Assembly: GCA_035771175.1 (NCBI GenBank)
Contig: CM069599.1
Span: 36,147,707 to 36,211,706 of the forward strand
Reading direction: 5' to 3'
Length of the DNA: 64,000 nucleotides
DNA from: Paratinospora sagittata
Taxonomy: Eukaryota; Streptophyta; Magnoliopsida; Ranunculales; Menispermaceae
Shown: in pieces, positions 40,799 through 64,000 of the stretch
How the letters are laid out: every line of letters starts with the position of its first letter
Numbering within the stretch: position 1 is the first letter of the stretch
Translations under genes and position numbers: made by a program
The notes under the pieces: generated by a model
Database searches by the model: none
What the model saw: only the letters and a program-made list of their open reading frames with translations
Told to the model about the DNA's origin: nothing

Positions 40799-42573
40799 GT
40801 TAAAAGCAAATCTTTTATTATATATGAATAAAAGATAATAATAAAATAAATTAAAATTTACACTAATTCCTATAAAAACATTTTTAAGAATGATCTTCAT
40901 GAACAATTATATTTCTATATTATTATTATTATTATTATTTTAGAAGAAACAATAATAGTACATTAATAATATAATTCAATTTAAAATACCTGACCAACAT
41001 TTTAAGGTTTTCCACGTAATGTTTGAGATTTGAGTTTGAACTTTTTAAGAATATTTCTACGGATATGAGAACCATGTATAACATTAATGTGATTTTTTTT
41101 TTCTAGGTATAATACACTTTACAAGACTTATATATATAAAAACGACGGTGTCTCATTTTTTGTCACTTAACTGTTTAAAATTTTCTTCTTTAATCTTTAA
41201 TTATCAGAATATAAATAATGATAAATAAGTAATTTAATTATATTAAATCAGTTAAAAAACTGCCTACAGTTTTATTCACAATCGACTTACGTACATGTAG
41301 ACTAGTATATATATATATTAGTGTTTGTACCATCCAACTTTTTGAACTAACGACGAGGTACTTTAACTTTTATAAGTGAGAGTACGTATTCCTATCTTGT
41401 CTTGCCGAAAAATAAAAGATAAATTTGTCTTTTAACATGTTTGTAACACTAGACAAATCATCAGATTAAAAACTAATAAATGAAAAGTGACTAGGGACAT
41501 TGGATTGTGGCTACTTACAATTATAAAATAGGTAAGTAATAAATTTTTGGTCTTCACCGAGTAGTATATAATGTACAAAAATAGACAAACACAAATAAAA
41601 TCGAATTGCTTGATTTTATATAAAAACGAATGAAAGGTTAGGTTATTGTCAGATCCCAAATCTGGCCAAAAGTGCTATATGTCTCTACTTTTGCTGTTTT
41701 AAGTTCCGGATTTTTAGAGTTTAGGTACACCTATTTGCAAATAGAGGAAAGGTCCTACAGTTATCTAATTAGAAAACAGGTTCAGGATTCAAAATTTCAC
41801 ACAAAAATAACAAGTTTACCTTTTTACACACATTTAACATTTAAACAGCCACGGGACCTGGTAACCAATGATCCGAAGCTGGCTGGATGTATATGATTTT
41901 GTAGGTTTTTTTATTATTTTTTCAATCTATTTTAAATCACTAAATTCAGAGTTAAAACAAAAAAATTATGATTATTTAAAATTATAAATTACTTAAGTAG
42001 ATAAAATCATTTACCAATAAGGTAAAACAAGTCGATGGATGGTTTACAGTTTACCGATTAGGTAAAAAAGTTTATTGATTGGTTAAAAAAATTATGGATT
42101 GGTGAAATTGACTTCTTGATTTTAAATTATTACAACTTTTTCGTTTAAACTTTAATTTTAGTGATAGAAGGTATTGCATTATATTGATCTTTTTCTTCTT
42201 CTTTTTTCTATCGCATTTAAGTCGTTCAAATCAGAGTTAGAATGATAATCTGAAATTAAGAGGTAAGTTCACTGATTCGTAAACATTTTTCCTTTATTAG
42301 GAGGGGTAGCAGCACGAGGGATGATTGTAACAATTGCACGGAGATTGCACCAAAACCAAACCCTAAAGACACACTGACCGGCTCAGTTCAATTAAGGGTG
42401 GCAAAAAATCAGTTACGGATGGGTATGCTACTTACAATTATAAAATAGGTAAGTAATCAACTTGGTTTGTGGACATTTAATTTCTAATATCTTCTTCCGT
42501 AAAGCATGGTCAACGTCTGCTTTAACTCAAAAAAACAGAAGCCGCCGTGAAGTGAACCTGCAAAAGCTGATAT

Positions 42574-42577
<4 letters not shown>
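40799..42577 (+). other. AT-rich intergenic region upstream of the ubiquitin-like gene A
   Basis: No coding region was recognised. It contains an ATT/TTA microsatellite near 40918-40940, a TA tract near 41305-41320, and a 31-bp exact direct repeat at 41510-41540 and 42427-42457. The promoter of gene A must be near the right end. Confidence 0.55.

Positions 42578-42612
<35 letters not shown>
42578..42612 (+). repeat. (GA)n tract in the probable 5' UTR or promoter of gene A
   Basis: About 17 GA units lie 24 bp before the ATG of the ubiquitin-like exon. GA/CT tracts in this position are common in plant core promoters and leaders; a regulatory role is inferred. Confidence 0.7.
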
Positions 42613-42635: not shown

Positions 42636-45600
42636 ATGCAAATCCTGGTGAAACCACCGGCTGCGGGAACGATTACGGTGGGAGTTGAGAGCTGCGACAC
42701 ACTCTACGACATTAAACGAAGAATCTGCGAGAAGATAGGGATTCCTACTGATGATCAGCGACTGCTGTATGGTGGAAAGCAGCTTGAGAATGGTTTGGTT
42801 CTTGATCAGATCAATTTGATCCAAAGTAGGTTACTTGATCAGCCTCACGATTCCCTTGAGGATCATGATCCAGCAAGTGCTTATCCCACTGTTTTTCTGT
42901 TGTTGCGTCTGAGAGGAGGAACAAACGTGATCTTTCATAGACTTCAGTTTGTGCACAGTTCATCTGAATCAGAATCGTCAGATCACGATGAGCCTCTGCT
43001 ATTTACTCAATCCATCTCAGGTATACACAATATATACCATTAGTATCCCAAAAAAAAAAGAAAAAGAAGGAAAAATCTGTGAAAAATATCGGTCATGCTT
43101 AGTTGCAGAATCATCGATATTGTTGAATTTCTTGAGATTGTATCAGCTTACTGTTGTCAATTTTATTGGAGAGTTCTTATAGTCATTAAGTTATTTTCAA
43201 ATAAATCTGATGTTCAGATATCAGGATTCAGTCCCCGAGGAAAACTGAAGACGATGATGATAAAATGTCTCCCTTTTGCATCATTGATACCAAAGCTGCG
43301 AGCATCGATCGACTCAGACGGTGGAGGGTAAGTTTCCATCAGTAACAGTATTTTGCTTCGTTCCCATATGATTCTGACATTTTCAATTTTTACATAATTA
43401 CTTTTTATCATGTAAGCTATAGCCTTATTGTGATTTTGATTGTTTCATTTATTTGACTATTGGCATCGTGAGATGCTTTAATTAGTTTTTCAAATGATGC
43501 TTTGTCAAACATTCTGTTCAAGGAACAAATGTTGTGCAATTGTTTCACATTTTAATTAGGTTCAAAATTCGTGAGATAAACTCTTAATATATTTTTATAT
43601 GGAATTTGGTGCTAAATTAGGCATATCAGTTGTTGTCAAACCATCTCTGAGAAAGCACCTTGACAAAAACAATGGTAATTATGTTACTGCATCTTTCAAA
43701 GTTAATTAGGAATTATAACTAAATTTAAACTAAGATAGCTTCAGTAAACAAGATCACAACAATTATTACTAAAAGGAGAAGTATCTAGAGTTATATATAT
43801 GTACGAAGGTCAGGATTTTCAGAGAAGAATTTAGAAAAGAAAAGAAGACAAAAAAAAGGGAACTTTGGAGCAATTTGAGTGCCTATTTTTTCTTACTTGT
43901 ATCATATTTATATTTGTGGAAGTTTAGCACATTCTTATGTTACTTTTTATGTCATACCATATCCAGTAAATAAGTGGAATTATTCCTCAAGCTGGCCTGT
44001 CTCCTCTGTGGGCTTCTCAACTAAGAGTTGGGGCATTTAATAGTCTTTTGCCTTTTTTCCTTTTGTTATACACCTATACGTTAGAGTATATAGGTATGTG
44101 TTTGAAGGAAGAGATGAGTTGTTTAAAGGTTTTTGAGGTATGCAGTGGCTTCTAGATGTTAAATGGGGTCTTATCATGGTATCTAACAAGAAGTTAATTG
44201 AGTATATTTTTTACTCATGCTCTTTTTTTCAAAGTTGTATCATCCGTGGTTTCCTTTTTTTTGTGATGTTTTTATTTCATGGTTGGTATTACTATTATGC
44301 TCATTTCTTTTGATATTTAAAATTAAATTGAAACAAGAAACATAAAAGCAAAGAAGAAAAAGTAGCAACTAGGAAATTGAGGCATTTTAATAGGTTTTTG
44401 ACTTTTTTCCTTTTGTTATAGGCTTATAGATTAGAGTATGATAGGTACACGTTTGAAGGAAGAGATGAGGGCACTGTAGGCCATCTGCTGAGTGTCAAAG
44501 CTTCAAGTTTAATTTGTTTCAAGGTTTTTGAGGTGTGCAGGGGTTTCTAGTTGGTAAATGGGGTGTGTGATTTTGTGATCATCCTAGTATCTTTCAAATG
44601 TTTATATTTCTTCGATATTGGCCATCTTGTTGGCTTCAAGTAAATCTATGTTCAGTTCCTTGTAAAATTATTTGAAATATCTGTTACCAAATTCAGTGTA
44701 ATTGATTGTCATTAAGTTCCATCACCTTAATTCCTTTAAGAAAAAAGATCTCTCTTATTTGCTTTAAATAGTTAGTTATTTATTCTTCCAGCTATTTTAC
44801 AATCATGTTGTAGTGGATTGTTTTAAAGGAGAGATATTGGAAGAAACTGTATTATGGGTGCATCTCAGCATCATTTAAGAACGAGTGACAACTTTTATAT
44901 TCCATATATATAAGTATCTATTGCTACAAAACTAGTTCTTGCAGTGATGTTACTATTATTATCGTGACGTGGCTCTATACGAACACATCAGAGTTTGATT
45001 AATGGATTATTTTCTATAATTTCAATCTAGATGTAGGATGGCTGGTATCTCCTGTGATTGCTTGGTTCCTGATTTCCCTTGTTCAGTTTTGCACCGAACT
45101 TTTTTTTTTTTTTTTCATGTGATAGGTTTATTGTAGGCTGCCCCAGGTAATGTTGTTACTGTTTGATGTAAGGCTGGAATATTTACTATTATATCATATC
45201 TTTAATTCTCAATTAATTAATTATGAAGGTCTCATGAATACTTTGTTTTTCTGAAAACAAATGATTGATGTCATTTTATTTGGACTAAATGATTTTCAGC
45301 AAGCTGCTCTTGTACTAAATTCCTCTCGTCGGTTTCGTTACACTTTGGACTTGAAAAAAATGGAAGAAAGAGAACAAATAAGAAGGAAGATCAGAGGCCA
45401 TGCACAGGCCATACGAGTAATTTTATATATTGTTCGATATTTCTTTACATAGTTCAGTTTTCCTTGTCTATTTCTAATTTATGTTATTTATTTTGTGTTA
45501 GTCGGCAATGCTTTTCAAACAGCGCGGGGAACGAGCAAATGGTATAATACTTTTCTTATAAATCTTCCGGAGTGTGTGTGTATGTGTGCTTTCTTGGTAA

Positions 45601-47828
45601 AACTGTCTTAGCTTAATTATTTCCTTTTTCGACTTTCAATTTGAGCTTTATATCATGTTATATCATGTTGCATAACGGTATTAAGACAAAAAAAAGTTCC
45701 CATGTTATTTGATTGCCTCCATTTTTCTTTTAATAAGAAGCAAGTACATGATGGCCTCCATGCTCTCTTGAGTCTTGATTTTATCACAATATTTGTATGT
45801 CCTGCACTTTTTGGTGGGCTAGTGGGACATTTATAGCTTTTACTTGTACCACACTCTCATTAAGAGAAAGTGACTTCATTGCCTTACAATCTTGATCCAT
45901 GTGAATTATGGACCTCTTCGTGTAAGGTACCAATGTCATGAAACTAGTTGCTTCTTCATCTAGCTAATCAGCCAACTCTGGTCAGCAGGTAATTGAATCA
46001 CAAAATTAGTTTAGCTAGTTCTCATAACTGCCAAGAGCCATTTAATTGTTAATTTTATAGGTTTGAGTGAAACCTTTGACAAGAAGGGAGCTCTTTATTT
46101 CTGATCACTCAACGATCCCATCAAGAATCAAAAAACTTTTTTTATTTTTTATTTTTTGAGAGGAAACAACAATGGTTTTATTAAAACTCAAATAAGATAT
46201 TACAAATGTTGGCACCAGTAGTGCAAACAACTGAAAGCAACAGCAGAACACACAACAGGCCAACCTGCAACACAACAGAAAGCAAGCTACTACCAACAAA
46301 CATCACTCACTCACCCCCCATCAGGATGTAAACAAGAATCCCAATATAACAACCAGTTGGAAACTGAAAATCCCTATTCCAAGAGGAGGCAACAACCCAC
46401 GAACTAGCTGAAAACCTGATTTCATCCCAAACAGTAGCAACATCTTTCCTTATGTCATGAAAAATTCTTCTATTACGCTCAAGCCAGATTGACCATATTG
46501 TCGCATAGGAGGCGATTAAGCCTATCTCCCTCTCCGCTCTATTAACATTCCTGTTATGATTGAAGGACAAGCCCTCAATGGCATTGCTCAGGGGCAGCAT
46601 CTTGAAACCCCTGTGAGCATGCCACTTTTGCCAAATCCTTGCAGCAAAAGAGCATCTGAAGAGAATGTGCTCAAGAGTTTCTGCCTCCTGCATACACAAA
46701 ATGCAATGGTGTGGCGAAAGACATATGGATGCGTATCGCCTTTGTAGCACGTCACAGGTGTTGAGCTTATTATGGGCAACAAGCCACCCAAACACCCTAA
46801 CTTTCGATGGGACCTGAACTTTCCAAATACAAGCTGCAAGAGGGAATGAAGGAAATGAGGGCCTATCAATAAGAATTGAACTACATGAAAATCCTACTGA
46901 TGGTGAGGGTAACCAGATAAATGTGTCAGGCTCATTACCTAGCCTAATTTGTTCAAGCCTAGGTAGAAGGAGTTCAATCTCATTTTGTTCTCCAATTGTA
47001 AGGTTTCAAAGGAAATGGAAATTCCAATTCATGGAAGATGATGGAGATGAAGAGGAATGATTCACAAAAGCCGAAATGGGCTGATCATGCAAGGATGAAC
47101 GGCGGAACAGGTTAGGATATGATTTTGAACTGTTCTCTACTAATCCTCCAAAGCCACTTAGCACACAGCACCACATTCCTCAAACAAATATTGCCAATTC
47201 CAAGGCCTCCCTTCTCCACCTGCCAACAATGCACTTAATGATGAGGAACTAGCTCTCATGTATTCTTGAGTAAATTAACATACATCACATCAACTAATGG
47301 CTTCTGCAATAGGAATCAAATTAGGTAATTGCAATTTCGAAATTGTCATTAAGTAGGATTTTAGTTTCCAAGTTGTAGTAGGAATCACATGAGATAATTT
47401 TCAAATTTCTTTATTGAGTAGGATTATAGTTTCCAAATTGCAATTGGAATCAAATTAGGTAATTTGGATTTCTATAAGCAAGGGGTTGTAATAGAGTTAA
47501 GAAAAAATGATTGATTGAATGGAAAAGATATTATTTATTGCTTCTATCTCCTCCTCCTCAAATCTTCTTCTTCTTTCTCTTCTGTTATCTTCTTCCTCAT
47601 TTTGTTTTATGAATAAACTAACATGACTGAATTCAAATTACTTGTCCTCTACTCCATGGTTTCTCTTTATTATACATGCAGTCGTTGTTGCTAATTAGTT
47701 TCCCTTTGTGTGAGCGTTCATTCAGCCTTCTGCAAGATTGTTTCTGCTGTAACTGCATTCTGCTTAATCTTTAATTCTATGTGGAATGATCTGTAACAGG
47801 ACAATCGAACGACGAGATTTCTGCATGA
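42636..47828 (+). CDS. Gene A: ubiquitin-like domain fused to the calmodulin-binding N-terminus of an ACA-type Ca2+-ATPase
   Basis: Exons: 42636-43020, 43218-43327, 45300-45416, 45502-45541, 47800-47828; phases match and the product is about 226 residues. Residues 1-95 are a divergent ubiquitin fold: MQILVK, GIPTDDQRLLYGGKQLENG, LLRLRGG, with about 19 extra residues before the last strand. Residues 96-128 are an acidic Ser-rich tail (SSSESESSDHDEP). Exon 2 ends in ASIDRLRRWR and exon 3 reads QAALVLNSSRRFRYTLDLKK then IRRKIRGHAQAIR. Exon 4 is LFKQRGERANG. This is the N-terminal autoinhibitory, calmodulin-binding region of ACA8/9/10 pumps. In a pump it would continue into the catalytic part; here exon 5 adds QSNDEISA and stops. 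The fold and ACA identity are clear from sequence. Expression, exon 5 use and cleavage after the di-glycine are inference. An upstream in-frame ATG at 42462 exists but MQILVK is the natural start. Confidence 0.75.
43328..45299 (+). other. Intron 2 of gene A
   Basis: AT-rich. It contains an imperfect duplication (about 44033-44170 against 44382-44550, shared words CTTTTTTCCTTTTGTTATA and GTTTGAAGGAAGAGATGAG). A segment at about 44305-44370 is shared with the repeat at 7070-7712. No coding sequence was recognised until the acceptor TTTTCAG at 45299. Confidence 0.6.
46137..47235 (-). mobile_element. LINE (L1-type) 3' fragment in an intron of gene A
   Basis: - strand, 46307-46795: MFGWLVAHNKLNTCDVLQRR, ICLSPHHCILCMQEAETLEH, RIWQKWHAHRG and GLIASYATIWSIWLERNRR, the LINE C-terminal zinc-knuckle region. 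Further upstream pieces extend to about 47235. The A-rich tail is the T-rich run at 46137-46158. It is 5'-truncated with broken frames; the target duplication was not found. Confidence 0.82.
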
Positions 47829-50173: not shown

Positions 50174-53100
50174 ATGAGCGGAGATATCAAAATGCGGATA
50201 TTAGTAAAGACAGTAAAAGGAACAACAATTAAACTGAGAATTGGGAGGCAAGAGAAGGTCGAGGTTATCAAACAAAAGATTTGGGATAAGGAAGGAATCC
50301 CTCCTGATCAGCAGCGATTGGTACTTGATGGAAAGCAACTGGAAGATGACTCTGTTTTTTACGAAAGATTTGTGATCCAAAGCAGGCAATTATATGATCA
50401 TGGAAAAACCAGTGCCATTATTTGGCTGATATTACGGATGAGAGGAGGTGGAAATGAGGTGATTCATAGACCAGTTCGTCGGACTCAGCCCAGCCCATCT
50501 GATTCTGACGATGAATCATCTGATTCCGAGCCTGCTGAGCTTCCCCAAAATGGTAAATCTAAATTCGCATCATTGTTAATTATCTCACCACACACTCAAT
50601 CACTCACTATGCTCACAGCCTTTGAAACACATCACTGTAATACGTAGTTGTTCTATATTTATAGATTAGAGGGGTAGCTTACGCTCAAAATAACAAGTTA
50701 CTAGTTTGGATCAAATAGTTAAAAACCTTGAAAGTCACTCAAGTTACGATTTTTAGTTTATACAACTACATTATAGTTAGGATAGTTAAATCAATCCCTA
50801 CACCAACGGTTTAGAAATCTGTCCCGTCCATCTAACGCCTTCCTCCCAGAGGACCTACATCGTGTCCTGTGGCCCACAGGTGCACCCACAAACGTGTTTG
50901 TTAAACTGTGGATGATAAAAGCTGCCGCTCCCGTGACTGAACTCTCAATCCCTCTTAAGCCCCTCCAAGCGCCAACCATCGTGCCAACTCGTTGTTGGCT
51001 ATATTTAAATCAAACTTACAACAACATGAAATGGTATTTTGAGTCTCAGCCACATGCCCAACATTTTTCTGGTACTTCTTTTTTTTTTTTTTTCATTTTA
51101 TTAAAATAATTCCATTTTTTTTTTTCTTGTATAGCTAAGCTCACATGTTTAAGAACTTACATTTTCATGTGTGAATCCGTGATTATGTCATAAAAAAAGT
51201 TAGTACTTAAAAATTGTGAAGAATTCCACTGAAATTATATTGAATATAATCAATTTTAATTGTACTAATCTAGAACACTTCAAATTCTAGAGCCACAGAT
51301 AGAAAAATGGAGGTAATAAGCCCGTCAATAATTGAATTTGTTTTACGTAAATAATGTAAATGAATCAAAGTTACATTCAGAAATGACCCTGTTTTATTCA
51401 GTCAGAGTGCCCTTGTTTCCAGTATTAACGACACAGTTATATGCTTAAAATAAATCCTAAGTCGACAGACTTATGGTTATAGATACTTCAAATTTATTGA
51501 TATTGCATTCCTTTAAATTTTTCTATTTGCAGAATGTCTTGAAATGGTTGATTATGCCACACAGCTTTGCATAGTTATGTTGATATACATCTGTTTCATT
51601 TGGTGATAGGTTCTTCTCAATCTATTACTGCCAATGGTGTTTATGCAATTGCGCAAGAACAAGTTACTTCAGAAACAGGGAACTGCGACTTAGCTGCTCT
51701 GGATTGTAATAGCAGGGCAAGTTTATTTCAGACATGCTTTATTTTATTTTACTCTAGTCAATTCACACAATTTGTTCATAACTTCATAGATTTTTCAGAG
51801 TCAAAGGCTCTCAAGATCATTACAAACAAATTCAGATAAGAGAACTAATATATTTGGGAATCTTTGTCTTATAGTTCAGGCAACTCCAAAGTGTCATTTT
51901 ATCATTTCTTCCTATGTCGATATATCATTGAGTACTTAAGTTTAGGATCCGTTGGTTCTTAAGTTTAGAGTCCCCCCCCCCCCTCAAGGGTTTCTGTGTT
52001 GGTTCTTAAGTTTAGAGTCCCCCCCCTCAAGGGTTTCTGTGTAGGGTCCTTTTGGTTTCCTTTCTGAGGTTGGCTGAGGAGTTTTTATTTTATTTTATTT
52101 GGGGAGTCAGTGCCATGGTTTTGGCGCCTGTTGGGTGGTTACTGTGTTGTTTTTGTTGTTCTGTCGGCGTTGTGTGTTGCACTAATGGTGCATCTTTGTA
52201 TTATTTCTTTTGCTTGCATATCTATTATATATATTCAGTTTTTGTCTGCATGAGCTATATAGAATGTAATTGATTCTGTAAGTATAGAAACAAATATTAG
52301 ATTGATTCTGTAATTAATCCTAGAAATCTATATAGAATGTAATTGATTCTGTAAATATAGAAACAATTTGTTTCCCTAATTTAGGACCTAATTTTAGGAT
52401 GAAATTGTATCTATATATTGCCTCTGTTTTAGAGAAGAATACACATCTTTGAACTCTATCTGCAGAAACTCTATTGTCTAACAGTTTTTTCTGAAAAAAA
52501 AGATAAATCATTGAGTACTTTATGATCTTTATACCTTCTAGGTGTCATGTTATGTAAAATTATTTCATTGATTTTGGTAGTTCTCATTTTGTGCAATATT
52601 AATTTTTTACTTGTATCAGGTAGAACCTGCTCCTGTTCTAATCAAGGCAAAAGCGCTGTGGTCTGCTCGATGGGGCTGTATTTCTGAAAAAGAGCGCGTT
52701 TTGAGGAGAGTGCTAGGGTAATGGACCATGAATATTGGTCTTCTTCTGAGATGAGATCTGGCCCATTTTCTTTTCTTTTCTTTTCTTTTTTTTTCAATGA
52801 ATTACCATTAATCATCAAATGGTGATCATGAAGTTACATATGAGCAAATTTTTTTTTAAAAAAGTTTTTTTTAGTGTCTATGGTTTCCAATTTCTATTTC
52901 TTGTGTCTTGCAGTATACTGAACAAGTTGACACAAGAGAATTTTGCTGTTCTTAAGGGTCGACTGATTGATGCTGGGATCACCACACCAGAAATCTTGCA
53001 GGTTTTATACCTTAAATTATTCAAATCAACTCAACAAAGCTTTTTCCCAACCTGCTTCATCCACTCAGCTTGTCAAGTTTATTTCTTATAATTGGATTCA

Positions 53101-56100
53101 CTGGGTCTGCAAATAAAATGCAGGGTGTTGTCTCATTGATACATGAGAAGGCTGTGTTGGAGCCAATATTTTGTCCCATCTATGCTCTTCTTTGTCATGA
53201 TCTAAATAATGAGCTCCCACCATTCCCTCCTGATGAGCCTTGGGGAAGTAACATCACTGTCAAGCGCCTCCTCTTGAGTAATTGCCAATGTACATATGAA
53301 AGTGCTTCAAATTTGAGGGCAGAAGTTAGGCGACCGAGCACTGGCCCTGAACAAGAAATGGAACAAAGAAACAAAGAAAGAATGGTGAAGCTGCGCACTC
53401 TCGGAAACATTCAACTCATAGGAGAGCTTCTAAAGCTGAGGATGCTGACTCCGAGGATTGTTCACAGCATTGTTCAGGTTCTTGTGAAAACTCTATCCCT
53501 ATCCTACTAGGATGTCAATAGGTTGGTTCAATCTTCAAAGTGAGCCAAACTAATGCTTTGGTTCAGTTTGAATGAATTTGGTTTGGGTTAGGTTTGAAAA
53601 AATATATAAACCGATCCGTTTGGTTTGATTCACTGCTTGAGACTTTAAAAATTGATTTAAACCAAATCAAACTAAATTTAAAGTTAAAAGATGTTAATAT
53701 TTTGATCTTTAATGTTTAAGGTTCTTTTATAACATATATATTGCGAATTTACTATAAATATTTGCTTTTTCATTTTAATAAGAAATAATTTCTGATTTAT
53801 TAAATGTATTATTTGATAATTTTATATTTAAAATTTTAAACCGATTAATCTAAATTGAACCACACTGATTATGTTCGATTTTGGTTTGTGCTAGTTGATC
53901 GGTTTGATTTGATTTGACAAAATACCAAATTGATTACATTCGGTTTGAATTAGGTTTGAGCATAAAATCGTCCTAAACCGAATTATTGACACTCCAATAC
54001 ACATAAAAAAAAAAAGAATAAAGTTCTTGCTGTTCTGGAGATTTTATGATTTTACCTATTGTTAATTGCATGTACCAAACAGAAGCTATTGGGAACTGAT
54101 GCAGACACTTGCCCTGATGAGGATAATGTTGAAGCCTTTTGTCAGCTTTTCAATACCATAGGAAAAGAGCTGGATGAAAGCCCCGGGGGGTCCAAGCTTC
54201 TTAATGATGCTCATTTCAACCAACTGAAGAAACTGGCGATGCACCCACACTTGCCACCACGGTTAAGGTTCAAGGTGCTCGATGTTTTGGACCTGCGAGC
54301 TAACAGTTGGGTTCCAAGTGTAGAGGTATGTTTGATTGCCTAAAAATGCTCTATTAGAAATTTCTTCGTATGCAACACCCTTTCAAGATCTTATTTGATA
54401 ATGACAATGATGTAACATCACCACAAATGTGTCAAATGCAAAGAAGGAAACTAAAGAACACAAATTAAACAAGAATCAAACAACAAGAAAGAACAATCAA
54501 CCCACAACACCAAGAAATTATGTGGTTCACCTACGTCCACAGAGGTAGAGATTTCACTACTATTAGAGCAAATCAATACAAGAAATTAGTTCCACTTGTA
54601 GGTCTTAATCTTACCTCTTCTTCCTTTCTTAGGGTTTCTTTCTCTTTTCTTCTTTTCCTCTCTTCTTTCTTTTGTTTTCTCTCCTCTCCCAAAATAGAGA
54701 TGTAAAGATAAAACAATAAGAACTCTCACCACTCTCACTTTCTCTACAAAGAAAAAAGAGCTTAACTAGCCTTTATACATTAGGCTATTACATGGGCTCA
54801 AAAAAACAAACAAGAAATATAATATATTGGGTTAGGCCCACATACATTTGTTTGAAGCCATAAACCCAACACCATGGCATGAATTGTGATAAAAGATCTC
54901 AATCAACCACCACAAATCAAAGCAAATCTCAAGCATAGCCGTTGAGAAAATCAAGCAATCTCCAAAAGATATATACAATCTCGTCTTTGCTGAATAGTCT
55001 TTATAGCTGTTAATTATTATTTTATATATACACCTCTTGTATAGACATATAACTATTATCAAAGAGAATACCTTCTTCTTCAAATCTTCTTTTAATTTCT
55101 CTTGTTCTAAAATTCAAAATGGTATCAGAGCCATCTTCAAACACTTTGACGGTTGAAGAACCCAAGCTTGCTATTCAATCCTTCCACCAATGTTCTAGCT
55201 TGATTTCCATTCAATTATCTACTACAAATTTTCTCATTTGGAAATCACAAATTCTACCTCTTATTCAGAGCCTTGGTCTTGAACATCATATTTTAGATTC
55301 ACAAAAACCAGCTGATGAAATCATTGATTCAGCTGGAACCAAAACAAAAAATTCAAACAAACAACAATGGATTTTGAATGATGGATTACTTACGTCCTGG
55401 CTTCTTGCAAATATGAAGGAAGAGACTAGTAGCATGATCCACGGAGGCGAAACAACTTATTCAATATGACGTGTTGTTCACGACCAATTGTTGCCCGATA
55501 CCAAGGATAACGAGGCCCAACTCAAAGACAGTCTTTATTGCTTAACAAAAGGGACTCGTTCTTTAGATGAATATATCTGCAAATTTAAAGAAATTTGCGA
55601 CAAACTCGCTGCCATTGGAAAACCATTTTCTGATGTAGACAAAGTATTTCAACTCGCAAAAGGACTTCGAAATAAATACAAGGATTTTTGAGTTGCAATT
55701 TTATCGAAACCACCTTATCCTTCATTTAAGCAATTTGTCATGTCCTTTCAAAATTTTGAACAGGTTTATAATACTGAAGAGAAGTCCTCCATTGATCATA
55801 CCCAAGCGTTTTTCGGACAAAGAGGGAGAGGGAGAAACATGCGTGGAGGAAAAGGCAGAGGAAGTGGTCGTCATTTTAATTCTTTTACACAAAGACATCC
55901 AAACCGCAACAACATTAATCTGGCCTCGAACTCCATTACCTCTCTGAAATTCAATAATGATTGGAAAGGATCTCCTAAACAACAAAATCAAGGCAAGGAT
56001 GCTTGTCAAATATGTGGTAGAACAAATCATACCGCTGTCAAGTGCTACTATAGGTATGATTATACTACTGAAGATGAAAGTGCTCATGAAGCAATGGCAA

Positions 56101-59100
56101 CAATGAATCTCCATGGTAATAATGATCCCAATTTTTATGCCGACTCAGGAGCGACATCTCATATGACAAATCAAGAAGGTAATCTTAAATCCCTAAAACC
56201 TTATTTTGGTATTGATAATATTTTTGTTGGAAATGGTCAAGCCTTACCAATTACTCTTACCGGTAATGCTCTACTAAATACTTCACATGGTAAACTTACT
56301 CTTAAAAATGTCTTAGTTGTTCCAAATATCAAAAAGAATTTATTATTTGTTAGCCAACTCATTGATAATAATGCTTGCTCTTTTGAATTTAACTCTTTTG
56401 GTTTTGTTATCAAGGATTCCAAGCAACAGATAATAGCTAAAGGACATAGGCAAGGGAGATTATTTACTCTTAAAGATGGACATGTTGAAGCTTTAGCTGC
56501 AGTCAATAGTAAGGAAACTTCTTCTGACATTTGACATGCTTGTTTAGGGCATCCTAATCATGCCTTTTAGAAAAGTTTAGAAAACAAGAAAGTTATAAAT
56601 ATTTCCAAATGGTTAGCAAAGGATATTCTTTGTACTAGTTGTCAACATGAAAAACATTGCAAACTTTCTTTTAATAAATCAGAATCATTTTCAAATTTTC
56701 TCAAGAATTTTCCCCTTGAGAAAATTTATAGTGACTTATGGGGTGCTCTAATTATTTCATCTAAAAAATTTCAATACTATGTATTATTTGTTGATGATTT
56801 TACTCGATATACGTGGTTATATCCATTAAGGCATACATCTGATTTTTACTCTTGTTTTCTAAAGTTTCAAGCTTTTGTTAAGAATCATTTTGACAGGAAA
56901 ATCAAGAATTTTCAATGTGATGGAGGCGGTGAATTTACTTCAAATGATTTTAGGAATCATTTAAATCAATGTGGGATCAAACAACAAATTTCTTGCCCTC
57001 ATACACTTGAGCAAAATGGATTGGCCGAAAGAAAGCATCATAATATTGTTGAGACAGGCTTAACTCTCATTTTTCATGCTAATTTCCCTCTAATATATTG
57101 TGTAAACGCCTTTTTAAGTGCTACATGTCTTATAAATAGATTACCTCTTTCTACAACTAGTAAGGATACCCCTTATTTTAGTTTATTTGGTAATCATCCC
57201 GATTATTCTAGTTTACGCATTTTTGGATCATAGTGTTTTTCATATTTAAAAACTCCTAGCATGCATAAATTTTTTTAAAAAAAACTGCCCCTTGTGTTTT
57301 CTTGGGGTATAGCCCATTACATAAAGGCTATCGATGTCTTGACCCTTAATCTCATTGTGTATACATTTCTAGACATGTGGTTTTTAATGAAAATAATTTT
57401 TCTTTTATACATAAGGAATCTCCTCTTTCTCAAGATTTTTGTATTACAACCTTTCCTAACTTTGATGAGTGGTTTTCAAGGAAATCAAATGAGAATATTT
57501 CAACCCCTACTTTACCCATTTCTACTCCAAAAAAAAATCTCAATTATTTGACTTTGATATCACATCCCAAGATTATATTCCTCCAAATTCATCTCCACCA
57601 ACTCCTCCCAATAATTTATCTCCTCCTTTTATAGATGCATCTCCTTCCTTTCCACTTGCTAATAATAATTTTTCCATGTCTCCCACTATCACATCTCCTA
57701 CTACACCTGAACCAACTATTGATTCACCTATAACAGCTCCTACTCAACGACCTCAACGTGACAAACGTCCTCCCTGATGTGATGCCCCAAAAATTGTTTA
57801 ATGTAGCCCATTACTCAATTGCATTTTGCCCAAACTTTATGTGTTTGCCTTGATATGTTTAGTGTTTGTTTTATGGTTGTTTAATGTTTGTATATTTGAT
57901 GCTTAATAGTGTATATAAATAGGTGCATTATAAATTGTATATGGGTCATGTTAAATTAAAGTATAATGCATGTGTTATTATTTATGCATGGGCCCATTAA
58001 ACCATAAATTGATATGGGTTAGGAATGATTGAATAAAAGGATAAATGAGAATGAAAATTTGATGTATTAGATGGATTGAACATTTAAAATACATGAAAGC
58101 ATGAGATTGGTTAAAGTACATGTGGTTGGTATGGGTAGTATGAGACCAATACATGTCAAGTTGGTGCATGAGAATTGACAAGTGTCTCATGTCCCATTTC
58201 TCTTCTCCAACACATGTCAAGTTGGTGCATGAGAGTGGACAAGTGTCCCATGCCCTACTTTTCTTCTCCAAGGAAGTCCTAGAGAGTGAGATGAGTGGAG
58301 GGAAAGGAAAAAAAGAAGAGAAAGGAAATAAGAAGAGAAAGAAAGAGGAAGGTGTTTTGAGGGAAGTCTCAGCAATGTTTTCATCAACGAGCTGGATCTT
58401 GGTGATATATGGTTCGATTGAGCTTAAACTTTGTCAACCAGTTATTATCTCATGGTTATTCATTCTGATCGGTGGAGATCTTGATTGGAGTTTTAGTCTG
58501 AGAGATATAACTTCCCAAAAAAAGCTGGTTGGAAAGTCTGGATTTCTCGCACAGTTTAGATCAAACCAATAGATCTCCTAAATCTACCGTTGGATGGATA
58601 TGATATTTGAGAAGGAAGTTCAAAACTGATCTTTATGCATTATGAACGGTTGAGATGTTGATGGGTCAAGTATTTTGTGTGATATAGTCATCTTAGTTCA
58701 AGTATTTGCAGCAGGAAAGGAGAAATTGTCTGATTAGAGACTTGTTCATCAAAGTGGCTTATCTTTTCGGTCCATCGTTGGATTGAGTTGATATTTGGAC
58801 AGAAGGTTTGTTTTATAACATAATTCAATCTGTACGGTTGATTTTGTGATTAAATATTTCTGTTGGTATCTTGATACATTTGAACAGAATATTAAATGGA
58901 AAATTGGTAGGGTTGTTTGTATTAGACCTAAATTTATAATATGAACTGACCTTTTCAAATAGCTTGCATGTCAACTATGTTGACCTAGTTGCCATTTTTG
59001 ATGAATCCATGATGCAAAATCAGTGATATACATGGCTGAACATAGTAACCTAGTGTAAATCGGCAATATGGCCCAAGTATGGAAAATTTCATATTTTAGG

Positions 59101-62100
59101 GCTTTTGATGCCTTTGGCCTAGAATCATTGAATTTATGCAATTTATGTCTAATTGAGTATGATTAGGGTTGATTATGCTACTGATTTGGTGGTTGTGACC
59201 ATATCATGGGTTAGGCCTACTTGTGATAATGGCTCAATTTGGGCATGTTTATGCCTAAGGAATTGAAAATCAGTATTTTTGATTAAATTAAATGGTTTAT
59301 GAATGAGAACTATGCATTAGAGGCCTAAGTCATGTGATTTGAGTTGAATGATGGGATTAGATGGGATTTAGGCCTATTGTCTATATGTGAGCTGATTTAG
59401 GGTTGATGTATAATGTCTATGCGATTAAGCATAGAAATTGATGTATGGTTGGATATTGATGAATGTTTCAGGACCTTGATTGGATTGATTCGGTTTGGTG
59501 TCCATGTGTGGTTAGATAATTCTTGCGAGGCTTGGTTTATGAGTAGACTTCATTTATGATTATATCTTTTATGTCATCATATTACTTATATATATTGTAT
59601 GTTGAAAGCATGAATATGTTCTAATGTTTTGAATGATGCATTGATTTGAGAAAATCTTATGACTTTGGTTAGGCCCATCTATCTGGCTAATAGGGAGACT
59701 TAACTTTGTCATAGGAGGGTTTTAGAAAGGAAATATTTGGGGATGAGAACGGTACGGTGAAATAGACGTGCACTAGTAATCCCAATGCATGTGGAATGTG
59801 GATCCAAATTTATTGGCTTTTACTTGCATCGAACTTATTATAAATGTTTGATATCTATATGTTATGAGCTTTTAATCATGCTACACATTGACATGCATAC
59901 ATGATATTTATTGATGAGTATTGATAGCATATTTGAATTCTATTTACTGGGCATCGTTGGCTCACCCTCATTTTTCTCTTTCAGGTCCTTCTGTCCAGAA
60001 TAAGGGCAAAGGAGTAGTCATATCTTGATGGCCTTGCCCGCGAGAGAATCCAAGGCCTCGATGTGAGTTGAGAGGCATTTTGATTGAACTGTGTTTTAAA
60101 TTATGATATATTATATTTTGGATCATGTAATTATAACACTTACCACATTGTAGTATGGATGAATTGGGACTTGTTAGATAGACCATGTAGGCATATGACA
60201 ATTTTTTTGTACCTATAGTTTTGGACTTTATGTGTATGCTCATCTTGATGGACTATAGGGATTATGGTTTTATTAATGGTTCATTTTTATGGATCATCTC
60301 TTGTCTTGGATGATTAATACGGTTGATAGTTTTGTTTAGTACATTTTTATATTATGTCGTTGTTTGGGATAAGGCTCGTAGGGTTTCAACCACCTCACGG
60401 GGATTGAGGAGTGGTTGGAGATGCCTATGTCGGGGGTCCCGCCCCGGCATTCTGCACGTCATTCCTAGCGGGGTTGGTGGTCCAGGTTGCGGGGTCGTCA
60501 CACCTCATATCTCAAAGACTATGTTTGTCCTACCACTACCTCTCACAATGCCTCGCTTGTTTCCATTGAAGAACCCAAAACTCTTACGATTGCTCTCAAG
60601 TATGAAAATTGGAAAGATGCTATGCAAGATGAGATTGATGCTTTAAACCTTAATAACACTTGGACACTAGTACCTCGACCAAGTGATGCCAATGTCATTG
60701 GTAGCAAGTGGGTATACCGTACTAAATTCAAAGAAGATGGAACCATAGATCGTTTCAATGCTCGCCTAGTGGCTAAAGGGTACACTCAAATACCTGAATT
60801 TGATTTTGGTGAAACTTTTAGTCTCATTGTCAAGCCAACAACCATCTACGTCACTATGCACTTCAACTAGACTCTCAAGCAACTTGATGTTAAAAACGCC
60901 TTTCTAAATGGCGTTCTTCATGAACGGGTTTTCATGGAACAACTCCCTGGTTTTGTGAATCTAAACTTCCCCAATCATGTTTGTTTTTTACACAAATCTC
61001 TATGTGGTCTTAAACAAGCACCTCGTGCTTGGTTTGCCAAACTATCCTCTAGTCTCATTTGTCTTGATTTTCTTTGTAGTAAAGCTGATCAATCTTTATT
61101 TATTTATCGTTCTAAAACTATACTAATTCTTTTGCTTGTCTATGTAGATGATGTGGTTATCACTGACAACAACTATAAGTTTATCTCTCATTTCATTACT
61201 CGATTGAACAAGGAATTCTCCCTTAGAGATCTAGGCACCCTTCATTATTTTTTGGGTATTGAAGTCAAACACTTTTCACATGGTCTTCTACTTACCCAAA
61301 CAAAGTATGCTAGGAACCTTTTAGCAAAAGCGTGTATGCTTAATGCCACCAAAATTAGTACTCCTATTGCTAAAAACCAAATTTCCCTTCCAGATGATAC
61401 ACATCCCACTAACCCTACTACATATAGGCAACTATGTGGTTCCCTCCAATATTTAACTTTTACTGGACCAGATCTCACTCATGTTGTTAACTTAGTTTGC
61501 CAACATTTTCAAAATCCTACCATGAAGAACCTTCGGGCAGTTAAGCGTATCATGCAATATATAAAGGGACTCTTACTTATGGTGCGCGACTTTTATCACA
61601 AAGCTCACTTACTCTTAATATTTTTTGTGACACAGATTTGGTCGGTTGTCCAATTACTAGACAAAGTACAACTGGGTTCTGCATATTTATTGGCTCCAAC
61701 TGCATTTCATGGACATCAAAGAAGCAACCTGTCGTGTCCCGCTCAAGTGCGGAAGCTAAGTACCATGCCTTAGCCATTACTATTGCAGAAATCACACGGC
61801 TTCAGAATCTGCTACACGCTATTGGGATAAAACTTGAACGACGTCCATTGTTGTTGTGTGACAACAAGAGTGTCATTCACTTGTCTTACAGTCTGGTGTT
61901 TCATCCTCGCACAAAACAAATTGAGATCGACTGTCATTTTTTTCGAGAAAAGTCACTGTTGGAGCCCTTCATCTACGTTATTTTCATACATCGAAACAAA
62001 TTGCTGATGTACTCACTAAAGCCTTACCAAAAGATTTGTTTCAAGATTTCCGTCACAAGCTAGGCGTTCATTCACCTTTACTGCCAAGCTTGAAGGGGGT

Positions 62101-62655
62101 GATAAAAGATCTCAAACAACCACCACAAATCAAAGCAAATCTCAAGCATAGTCGTTGAGAAAATCAAGCAATCAAATTATCTCCAAAAGATATATACAAT
62201 CTTGTCTTTCCTAAATAGTCTTTATAGTCGTTAATTATTATTTTATATATACACCTCTTGTATAGACATATAACAATTATCAAAGAGAATACCTTCTTCT
62301 TCAAATCTTCTTTTAATTTCTCTTGTTCTAAAATTCAAAAAATTAAACAGGTAACTGTAGTTTTTATGACCATGTCATATGCATAGTCTATCCTTGTGTT
62401 AATTATATAACCCGTCTTAGAAGTTGCAACATTTTGTTGGGTTTCCTTTGTTTCTTGAGGACTCCTAGTTTTATCTTTTGTTTCTTTTATCATCAGGGTA
62501 ATGGACAACCTGCCAGTTTTTTTTGTGAGGATCCAATAGGAAAATTTCTCCGCAAAGAATTTGTACTGAAAGCAAAATATGTGAAGAAACTCTGCGAAAA
62601 CCTCAAAAGGATTAAGGGAAGTTTTTATGTTAGCAGCATAAGCCCAAGGTCATGA
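50174..62655 (+). CDS. Gene B: ubiquitin-like domain fused to an ACA fragment and an eIF(iso)4G-type MIF4G domain
   Basis: Exons: 50174-50552, 51610-51716, 52620-52717, 52914-53001, 53124-53477, 54083-54325, 62497-62655; all phases fit, about 475 residues. Residues 7-92 are ubiquitin-like ([34 protein letters not shown]), followed by an acidic Ser-rich tail. Exon 2 ([20 protein letters not shown]) resembles the ACA segment right after the one in gene A. It ends at an AG/GCAAGT donor. Exons 3-6 are eIF(iso)4[72 protein letters not shown] and [20 protein letters not shown], a full MIF4G domain. In the family MIF4G binds eIF4A. The eIF4E-binding site and MA3 domain are absent. The last exon ([20 protein letters not shown]) is not recognised. 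A 7.5-kb copia element lies in the last intron. The start could also be the ATG at 50192. Confidence 0.77.
51717..51722 (+). promoter_or_regulatory. GC-AG splice donor in gene B
   Basis: The exon ends AGCAGG and the intron starts GCAAGT, the strong consensus of the rare GC-AG intron class. No GT donor in the right phase (phase 0, to match the exon at 52620) fits as well. Found by phase matching; needs transcript support. Confidence 0.55.
51955..52045 (+). repeat. Short tandem duplication with poly-C tracts in an intron of gene B
   Basis: GGTTCTTAAGTTTAGAGTCC followed by a C run and CTCAAGGGTTTCTGTGT occurs twice in succession, with different C-run lengths. Confidence 0.85.
53020..53095 (-). 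mobile_element. RTE-type LINE 3'-end fragment in an intron of gene B
   Basis: CAACTCAACAAAGCTTTTTC plus CCAACCTGCTTCATCCACTC is the complement of the RTE 3' end also seen near 5717 and 27847. It sits between the MIF4G exons ending 53001 and starting 53124. Confidence 0.5.
53509..53993. mobile_element. Probable MITE in an intron of gene B
   Basis: The left end GATGTCAATAGGTTGGTTCA and the right end CCGAATTATTGACACTCC are roughly inverted (TGTCAATA shared). The interior is full of GGTTTG and AAACCGA words without coding potential, a common layout of plant hAT-like MITEs. The target duplication was not resolved. Confidence 0.5.
54887..55119 (+). repeat. 5' LTR of the copia element in gene B
   Basis: Starts TGATAAAAGATCTCAA and ends TTCAAAA (TTCA if a TG...CA end is demanded). 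It is nearly identical to 62100-62340 except for a few substitutions and an 8-bp insertion in the 3' copy. Confidence 0.88.
55119..56531 (+). pseudogene. copia gag and protease of the gene B element, broken
   Basis: The gag start ATG (55119-55121) overlaps the primer binding site. Gag blocks: 55119-55469 ([20 protein letters not shown]), a stop, then 55488-55691 ([20 protein letters not shown]) and 55740 onward. A CCHC knuckle [14 protein letters not shown] lies near 56007-56048. The protease DSG is in [13 protein letters not shown] near 56133. The stop at 56532-56534 precedes integrase. About 4 breaks in total. Confidence 0.88.
56535..57777 (+). pseudogene. copia integrase and linker of the gene B element, broken
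   Basis: The HHCC finger is visible as HACLGHPNH and [10 protein letters not shown]. The catalytic core shows [34 protein letters not shown] and [18 protein letters not shown]. The 57021-57233 part continues [14 protein letters not shown]. In-frame stops occur (near 56569, 57230). A Pro/Ser/Thr-rich linker runs up to the solo LTR insertion point at 57777. Confidence 0.86.
57778..60502 (+). mobile_element. Solo LTR 4 (long LTR, different family) inside the copia element
   Basis: 2725 bp, TGTGATGCCCCAAAA to GCGGGGTCGTCACA, ends typical of Ty3/gypsy-like long LTRs. Target duplication CCTCA on the right (60503-60507) and CCTGA on the left (57773-57777). Removing the LTR restores the copia linker reading [11 protein letters not shown], which shows that the left copy mutated. 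It contains a tandem repeat of about 61 bp (58151-58272) and a GC-rich last 150 bp. No coding region was recognised. Confidence 0.87.
60503..62080 (+). pseudogene. copia reverse transcriptase and RNase H of the gene B element, broken
   Basis: RT start: [40 protein letters not shown] and RLVAKGYTQ (60487-60870), stop at 60868-60870. The core 60934-61773 reads [16 protein letters not shown], the catalytic VYVDD motif, [17 protein letters not shown]. RNase H (61638-62063): [43 protein letters not shown], then frameshifted [17 protein letters not shown] end. At least two frameshifts. Confidence 0.88.
62100..62340 (+). repeat. 3' LTR of the copia element in gene B
   Basis: Follows the polypurine tract directly and matches the 5' LTR. 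The small LTR divergence suggests an insertion younger than the - strand copia at 29335-40798, whose LTRs differ much more. Confidence 0.88.
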
Positions 62656-64000
62656 AATTGTGGATCTTGTAGCGGTTGAAAATACCATGGATTTCATGTA
62701 AAGAAATATTTTTATTTTTTAAGAAGAAACAAATATTATTAAGTATAAAATTGTTGAAATAAATTACAAAGTATCAAGAGCAGCAGTTGCGCTCACCACC
62801 ACTTTACACAGACACCACCCAAATAGCAAACTACAGTAACTATTTGAGCCCCAATACAACACCACCGCCATTACGCCATACAAAGACATCCTACGAAACC
62901 AATCCAACATCGATGGCTAGAAAACTTTGACGCTGCAACCTGAGTAAAATATTAAATAGAATAGAAATTATTCATAATCATCGAGTTAGAATTGATCTAA
63001 ATCAGCCCATTTTGTATTGCCAACTATTAAACAACTTATTAGAAACACAAGACAACAAATAAAAAATGCCACAAACTCCCCCGCACTCAAGGATGCCTGC
63101 ATAATCGAGGAACATGTACTAGGGTGTATGCGTGACTCATTCAAATCATGAGTTGTTTAAACTTTTTATCTAAATGAATTTGTTTCTTTCGTATCAAAAG
63201 AAAATTATATAGCCCATTTCTATATTTGTACTTGTTCTGCAGTTTAAAGCCATGATCATTACTATTGAAGCTCATTTTGGCTCCCCTACAAGTTGCTAGG
63301 GCCCGTCAGCGCCTATGTAGAGCGTGCCCTAAAGGCAAGTCCTGAGGGATTTTGTTTTCTCCTTAGAAAAGACCTCTTGCTAGTGTAAGGGGATGAAACT
63401 TCTTATGCATCTTAGATTGGAATAACACAGTTAATGTGAGACTAATCTTTAGAGTTGAACTCACCAACAATTACCAATCAATATCTATTGTGAAGAGGCT
63501 GAAAAGAATCTTCATCTGGGGTTGCATCCTGGTGCCACTTCAAATATGAGAATGGGTTGTGGAAGTTTCTAAGGATTGATGCACATATTCAATTTTCTTC
63601 ACAGTTTTTTAACCACTGGAGCCATCTCAATTCTCCTAAATTATTACTCTGTTTATGTTGGTTGTGTTTCTTAGACTCCTATGGCACCAAAAACCATTTT
63701 TATCGCTAGTGGGAGGAATGGAAAATTTGACAAAATATCACATTAAAATTTCAAAAACTGAGGAATAGCATGTCCCATTATTTTCTTTATCAATAACACT
63801 TTTAAGCATATAAAAAGACTAAAATAATCTTCTTTTAAATAATACAACAACCAGTTAGTGAACTAACCAAATGCTATTCATTTTTCATCTTCTCCTCATT
63901 TAAGTTGTTTTCAACAACCTATCAGTTATATATTGTTTGAAAGAAACAACAAAGTTACCCACAGTATTTCCATTGTTTAGTCATTGTTGTCCTAAATCTT
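62656..64000 (+). other. Region after gene B, no gene recognised
   Basis: It starts with the 3' side of gene B. A T-rich stretch followed by AAGAAGAAACAAATATTATT (62707-62740) resembles the complement of LINE 3' ends in this window, so a short LINE remnant on - up to about 62940 is possible. The rest is AT-rich sequence with no supported feature. Confidence 0.45.

Follow-up and report, generated by a model that had tools for sequence, protein, structure and literature searches.

An in-frame chimera of ubiquitin-like, Ca2+-ATPase and eIF(iso)4G exons in Paratinospora sagittata, probably exon-shuffled and partly decaying

Where a ubiquitin-like exon lies in frame with the regulatory exons of a calcium pump, the question arises whether the two form one gene and, if so, whether that gene is a working regulator. 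We addressed this question in a 64,000-nucleotide stretch of the Paratinospora sagittata genome (the window; contig C11, positions 36147707-36211706), in which a divergent ubiquitin-like (Ubl) domain is followed by exons of an autoinhibited Ca2+-ATPase (ACA) and then by exons of eIF(iso)4G. We consider it probable that the locus is an exon-shuffled chimeric gene from a tandem array, with its Ubl1-ACA part decaying or selectively unconstrained, and that it is not a maintained regulator. The exons on which this reading rests, whose content, order, phases and open frames are read directly from the DNA, as are their copies and lesions, are the following.

42636-43020, forward strand: Ubl1 exon, a divergent Ubl domain carrying an insertion of about 19 residues, RLRGG, an acidic/serine tail and a phase-1 donor
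43218-43327, forward strand: 3' part of ACA exon 1 (ending ...DTKAASIDRLRRWR), its acceptor apparently inside the former ACA N-terminal region
45300-45416, forward strand: ACA exon 2 (beginning QAALVLNSSRRFRYTLDLKK...), core calmodulin-binding helix, with matches to PDB 8qmp, 4aqr and 2m73
45502-45541, forward strand: ACA exon 3 (SAMLFKQRGERAN), phase-1 donor
47800-47828, forward strand: last exon proposed by a first-pass annotation of the window (GQSNDEISA, then stop), possible but not needed
50192-50552, forward strand: Ubl2 exon, a second divergent Ubl with an acidic tail and a phase-1 donor, inside ACA intron 3
51610-51716, forward strand: relative of ACA exon 4, phase-1 acceptor, phase-0 GC donor AG/GCAAGT
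52620-52717, forward strand: eIF(iso)4G exon
52914-53001, forward strand: eIF(iso)4G MIF4G exon
53124-53477, forward strand: eIF(iso)4G MIF4G exon
54083-54325, forward strand: eIF(iso)4G MIF4G exon
63495-63566, forward strand: further eIF(iso)4G exon piece (EAEKNL...PGATSNMR), E 1.25e-4, behind a retrotransposon

The Ubl1 exon begins with an ATG, is 385 nt long and ends at the phase-1 donor CAG/gtatac at 43020, just as the first-pass annotation had placed it. In the spliced reading, the Pfam ubiquitin profile PF00240 matches residues 10-61 (E 5.2e-12) at 45.8 bits against a cut-off of 25.4, placing the domain in the ubiquitin family, and the PDB matches at the top of the list are chains of ubiquitin or chains that contain it. 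An AlphaFold2 model (mean predicted local distance difference test score 60.4) shows a ubiquitin-like core, with block means of 72-87 over residues 1-60, and low confidence in the insert and the tail. RLRGG is followed in the same frame, inside the exon itself, by the extension TNVIFH..., which is the sequence arrangement of a ubiquitin fusion precursor.

The three exons that follow (43218-43327, 45300-45416 and 45502-45541) restore the frame with AG/GT borders, as had been claimed, and the acceptor and donor of the exon 1 part are identical across the five sequences compared. The Pfam profile PF12515 (CaATP_NAI, N-terminal autoinhibitory domain) lies at residues 146-188 (E 1e-17), which, together with the sequence matches to three solved ACA8 chains (8qmp, 4aqr and 2m73), identifies an N-terminal autoinhibitory, calmodulin-binding domain. 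An in-frame union of a Ubl domain and an ACA N-terminus is present in the DNA, with both PF00240 and PF12515 matched and the same borders among copies. Positions 45160-45544 align through the exon borders to a linked ACA gene at 69.5% identity, in agreement with the proposal that the ACA introns are original; because these introns are retained and alignable, the ACA part is not a retrocopy, and a processed retrogene was rejected. The absence of a catalytic part also held up, as no credible ATPase catalytic exon, and with it no P-type catalytic core, was found downstream of 45541 within the window.

The gene end at 47828 fared less well and is not required, as the relative of ACA exon 4 at 51610-51716 stands in phase and is followed by eIF(iso)4G exons. 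When this exon and its flanks are aligned with exon 4 of the linked ACA gene (L017), the match reaches 64.7% across 153 columns (E 1e-11). The rare GC donor motif GCAAGT occurs at the same exon end in both, and the acceptor at 51610 is compatible in phase with the donor of ACA exon 3. An assignment of the same exon to eIF(iso)4G was rejected once the comparison with the linked gene had shown it to be ACA exon 4. Among the matches listed, the relatives of the four exons from 52620 to 54325 are plant proteins of the eIF(iso)4G type, and the MIF4G profile PF02854 is matched at 149 bits over 202 of 203 positions, identifying the MIF4G domain of eIF(iso)4G. Taken together, the nine exons (Ubl1, the ACA exon 1 part to exon 4, and four eIF exons) form a stop-free reading of 1542 nt, or 514 codons, containing three Pfam domains, each above its curated cut-off, with matching phases at the junctions (phase 1 at Ubl/ACA, phase 0 at ACA exon 4/eIF). 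The chimera thus holds most of the ACA regulatory region and none of the pump core, and continues into a different gene. The N-terminus of eIF(iso)4G itself (probe P0250) gave no match at E 0.1 in the window and L009-L024; within the same sequences and threshold, its C-terminal part (MA3; probe P0247) gave no match either, only the piece at 63495 being found and DNA farther downstream lying outside the search.

The first-pass annotation had missed the Ubl2 exon, as well as the degenerate ACA exons upstream (2804-28869). Judging from its sequence, Ubl2 could be an alternative first exon: it joins ACA exon 4 in frame to give a Ubl2-ACAe4-MIF4G reading of 417 codons (window 50192-54325). Further divergent Ubl exons lie outside the window. 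On the inverted copy of the unit described below as C, five such exons or remnants stand in tandem (L012, L024 and L025 at C11 35.653-35.680 Mb, and L023:8900-9001), and four of the five share a GxxNxxxHx... tail followed by a serine/acidic run. Farther along this copy, Ubl3 is followed by an ACA exon 4 relative in phase 1 (the phase by our own reading) that is a closer relative of exon 51610-51716; no eIF exons were found behind Ubl3 of this copy, where two more Ubl exons or remnants also lie farther along. Pairwise ratios of replacement to silent substitution rates (dN/dS) among Ubl1, Ubl2 and Ubl3 are 0.48-0.66. A polyubiquitin-like remnant lies upstream of the window (L022:7935-8219).

Across the genome (1.29 Gb in 4049 contigs), a search with the ACA segment returned 14 matches from 25 candidates scored, all on C11 at 35.62-36.52 Mb or on C23 at 31.82-31.88 Mb. 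The unit occurs in four copies, three on C11 and one on C23: W is the window, D lies at C11 36.46 Mb, C lies inverted at C11 35.67 Mb, and E, on C23, has ACA exons 1-3 doubled. All nine exons are present in order in C, D and E as in W, and each unit has, some 53-61 kb away and oppositely oriented, the start of another ACA gene. The three C11 units may be partly an assembly effect. Two of the four copies have a broken Ubl1-ACA frame. In D, 11 nt are deleted close to where ACA exon 2 ends, past the calmodulin-binding core, and in E codon 41 of Ubl1 is a nonsense codon; Ubl3 of the D copy is frameshifted. Just upstream of Ubl1, at 42559-42611, the homology of W to C and D stops near a GA repeat, whereas that between W and E continues past it, so the presumptive promoter varies among the copies.

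In Ubl1 and ACA exons 1-3, five sequences (W, C, D and both ACA sets of E), with sites treated as independent, have 15 variable coding sites, of which 2 are silent, 12 are replacements and 1 is a nonsense change, where 26% silent is expected under neutrality. A dN/dS of 0.3 or below is rejected (p 0.0016) and one of 0.5 is disfavoured (p 0.023), while a value of 1 fits (p 0.22); no purifying selection on the Ubl1-ACA protein was detected with these 15 sites in five sequences. As purifying selection was not detected and two sister copies carry breaks, we take the Ubl1-ACA part to be decaying or unconstrained. The Ubl2-eIF part is mixed. Its exons (Ubl2, ACA exon 4 and eIF) have 27 variable sites among the four copies, 5 of them silent: 17 separate W from C, D and E jointly and are all replacements, with 0 silent, and C differs from D/E at 5 silent and 5 replacement sites. 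Between D and E there are 0 exon differences in 1251 nt and 15 differences in 3163 nt outside exons. Compared with a tandem eIF copy upstream of Ubl1 in D, the eIF part has a dN/dS of 0.96 (W) or 0.76 (D).

Several observations weigh against decay or lack of constraint. All four copies have identical dinucleotides at the borders of the nine exons. The complete frame is open in both W (514 codons) and C (515, with one extra codon), and in D the Ubl1 domain and calmodulin-binding core are still open, as the deletion lies behind that core. The lesions in D and E could themselves be assembly errors. Exons also differ less than introns, both between W and C (12/652 against 58/2245) and between W and E1 (7/652 against 47/2211), and the same holds for the eIF part against its tandem copy (64/738 against 196/1022 for W; 58/738 against 182/948 for D). 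The window ACA exons have a dN/dS of 0.22 (dS 0.74, 72 codons) against the linked ACA gene, a mean that includes the time when the segment belonged to a whole pump, before truncation. The 417-codon Ubl2-ACAe4-MIF4G frame is open in all four copies, and pairwise, C and D differ over Ubl2-eIF by 6.5 silent and 3.5 replacement changes, for a dN/dS of 0.16 on 10 changes in all. Even so, because sister copies are partly broken and there is no sign of preservation, a decaying or very young chimera is more likely than a working regulator. Within it, the part more likely to work is Ubl2-ACAe4-MIF4G, which shows some hint of being maintained.

Chimeric genes can arise by local duplication and recombination in introns, or exon shuffling. 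Here, exon-by-exon shuffling would have combined a tandem array of divergent Ubl exons with an ACA pump gene next to it and with eIF(iso)4G. Because all junctions lie at intron borders of matching phase, we infer recombination within the introns of the tandem cluster, which, followed by segmental duplication of the whole unit, would be the simplest route. Transcription, splicing and cleavage we likewise infer: if the unit is transcribed, splicing would give Ubl-ACA-MIF4G and Ubl2-MIF4G proteins, with Ubl1 and Ubl2 as alternative starts, and cleavage at the di-glycine would release ACA-MIF4G or MIF4G.

The rival that survives best, although we find it unlikely, is that these exons are neighbours and not one gene, the Ubl exons being short genes that stop in their own intron and the ACA and eIF exons being truncated pseudogenes that are never spliced. 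Read without splicing, Ubl1 does reach a stop after SGIHNIYH, and Ubl3 of the C copy after CGKQ, and the DNA upstream of Ubl1 divides W/E from C/D. This reading must nevertheless contend with the phase-1 donors of Ubl1, Ubl2 and, by our own reading, Ubl3, each followed by a frame-compatible acceptor, and with a frame that stays open through foreign exons.

We give a lower chance, and a small one, to a working young chimera, in which Ubl2-ACAe4-MIF4G, perhaps together with Ubl1-ACA-MIF4G, would be translated and a protease may cut after the di-glycine, releasing a MIF4G protein with or without the calmodulin-binding helix. The open 417-codon frame, the complete MIF4G domain and the low C-D ratio all speak for it, as does the lack of silent changes among the 17 sites particular to W, which falls nominally below the neutral silent share of about a quarter (a share taken from the Ubl1-ACA exons). 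Set against these are the ratios of the eIF part to its tandem copy, five W replacements at positions that, by our reading, are conserved in the eIF(iso)4G of other plants (C, D and E share two such changes), and the Ubl1-ACA breaks in two of the four copies.

Capture by a DNA transposon of the Pack-MULE or Helitron type, in place of recombination within the array, appears very unlikely. Such capture typically brings together, over a short distance, intron-bearing pieces of several unrelated genes, as are present at this locus. None of the 7 inverted-repeat pairs (minimum 40 nt) flanks the region at 42-55 kb, however, in a search that did not extend to short or degenerate repeats or to Helitron ends, and Ubl and ACA sequences already occur repeatedly in the neighbourhood.

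There is similarly little chance that the locus is a lineage-specific gene in which a Ubl precursor would be cleaved at its di-glycine to free the ACA regulatory domain fused to MIF4G, so that a translation-factor scaffold would become a target of calmodulin, or the regulatory domain, once free, would act in trans as an inhibitor of Ca2+ pumps, and in which the choice between Ubl1 and Ubl2 would set whether the calmodulin helix is present. One study found that the ACA8 regulatory domain made on its own (residues 1-130) binds to the pump core at 1.7 uM and that calmodulin displaces it (PMC6255812); as it binds in isolation, an effect in trans is physically possible.

That possibility and the occurrence of the 47800 acceptor and stop in W, C and D and, in E, after its second ACA set are what favour the first-pass model, in which Ubl1, ACA exons 1-3 and the terminal exon 47800-47828 would yield a precursor cut to a free calmodulin-binding peptide of about 131 residues, but it is the least credible reading, since the frame can run on into ACA exon 4 and MIF4G, is broken in two of four copies and shows no sign of purifying selection.

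Ubiquitin-ribosomal protein fusions and polyubiquitin are known ubiquitin fusion precursors. Ubiquitin fusions in algae are treated in PMC6332867. The chimera resembles such precursors in its N-terminal ubiquitin-fold domain, with RLRGG ahead of a C-terminal extension; it differs in that its Ubl1 domain has diverged and carries an insert and, beyond the di-glycine, a tail, that the extension consists of an ACA regulatory region and MIF4G, and that two of four copies are broken. With the ACA8/9/10 autoinhibited Ca2+-ATPases it shares exons 1 (part) to 4, their introns, the calmodulin-binding helix and CaATP_NAI, but no ATPase part was found in it. It shares a complete MIF4G domain and a recognisable exon set with eIF(iso)4G, whose own N-terminus is replaced by Ubl and ACA exons, and the N-terminal and tested C-terminal parts were not found in the window and L009-L024. 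As in exon-shuffled chimeric genes, its exons come from unrelated genes and meet at phase-matched joints within a duplicated cluster, and it differs from such genes in having three partners and repeated Ubl first exons. No public protein with two of the three domains was present among the matches listed (113 of 113, the best 120 of 919 and the best 120 of 241), in a search that needs shared exact words. Within the open-licence literature, no paper combined eIFiso4G with a ubiquitin domain, and no title among the matches listed described such a gene.

If expressed, this would be a three-partner exon-shuffled gene in which a ubiquitin-type module is joined to a calmodulin-binding regulatory domain and a translation scaffold, young enough for its four copies and their lesions to be compared. 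If decaying, it would clearly illustrate how long open chimeric frames can arise through phase-matched introns within a duplicated cluster, and would be a reminder that in-frame fusion in raw sequence alone does not make a gene.

The window also contains the following elements.

2804-28869, forward strand: exons of a degenerate ACA gene upstream of Ubl1, covering about ACA8 residues 339-1059
46307-47250, reverse strand: retrotransposon remnant, presumably non-LTR (lacking long terminal repeats) from the sequence of its open reading frame at 46307-47005 (reverse strand), in ACA intron 3, borders approximate
54949-62340, forward strand: long terminal repeat (LTR) retrotransposon, presumably of Copia type by its open reading frames, with a 171-nt direct repeat pair (95% identical), splitting the intron after 54325

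In the degenerate ACA gene, whose exons were defined with an ACA8 probe, PEELP replaces PEGLP and the GDGTNDAPALHE motif is also altered. DNA similar to the non-LTR remnant occurs at 9.0-10.8 kb in the window. Between 31600 and 40800 lie repeated blocks, spaced roughly 3.0-3.8 kb apart, that include runs in which AGTGAATAGTG-like motifs are frequent.

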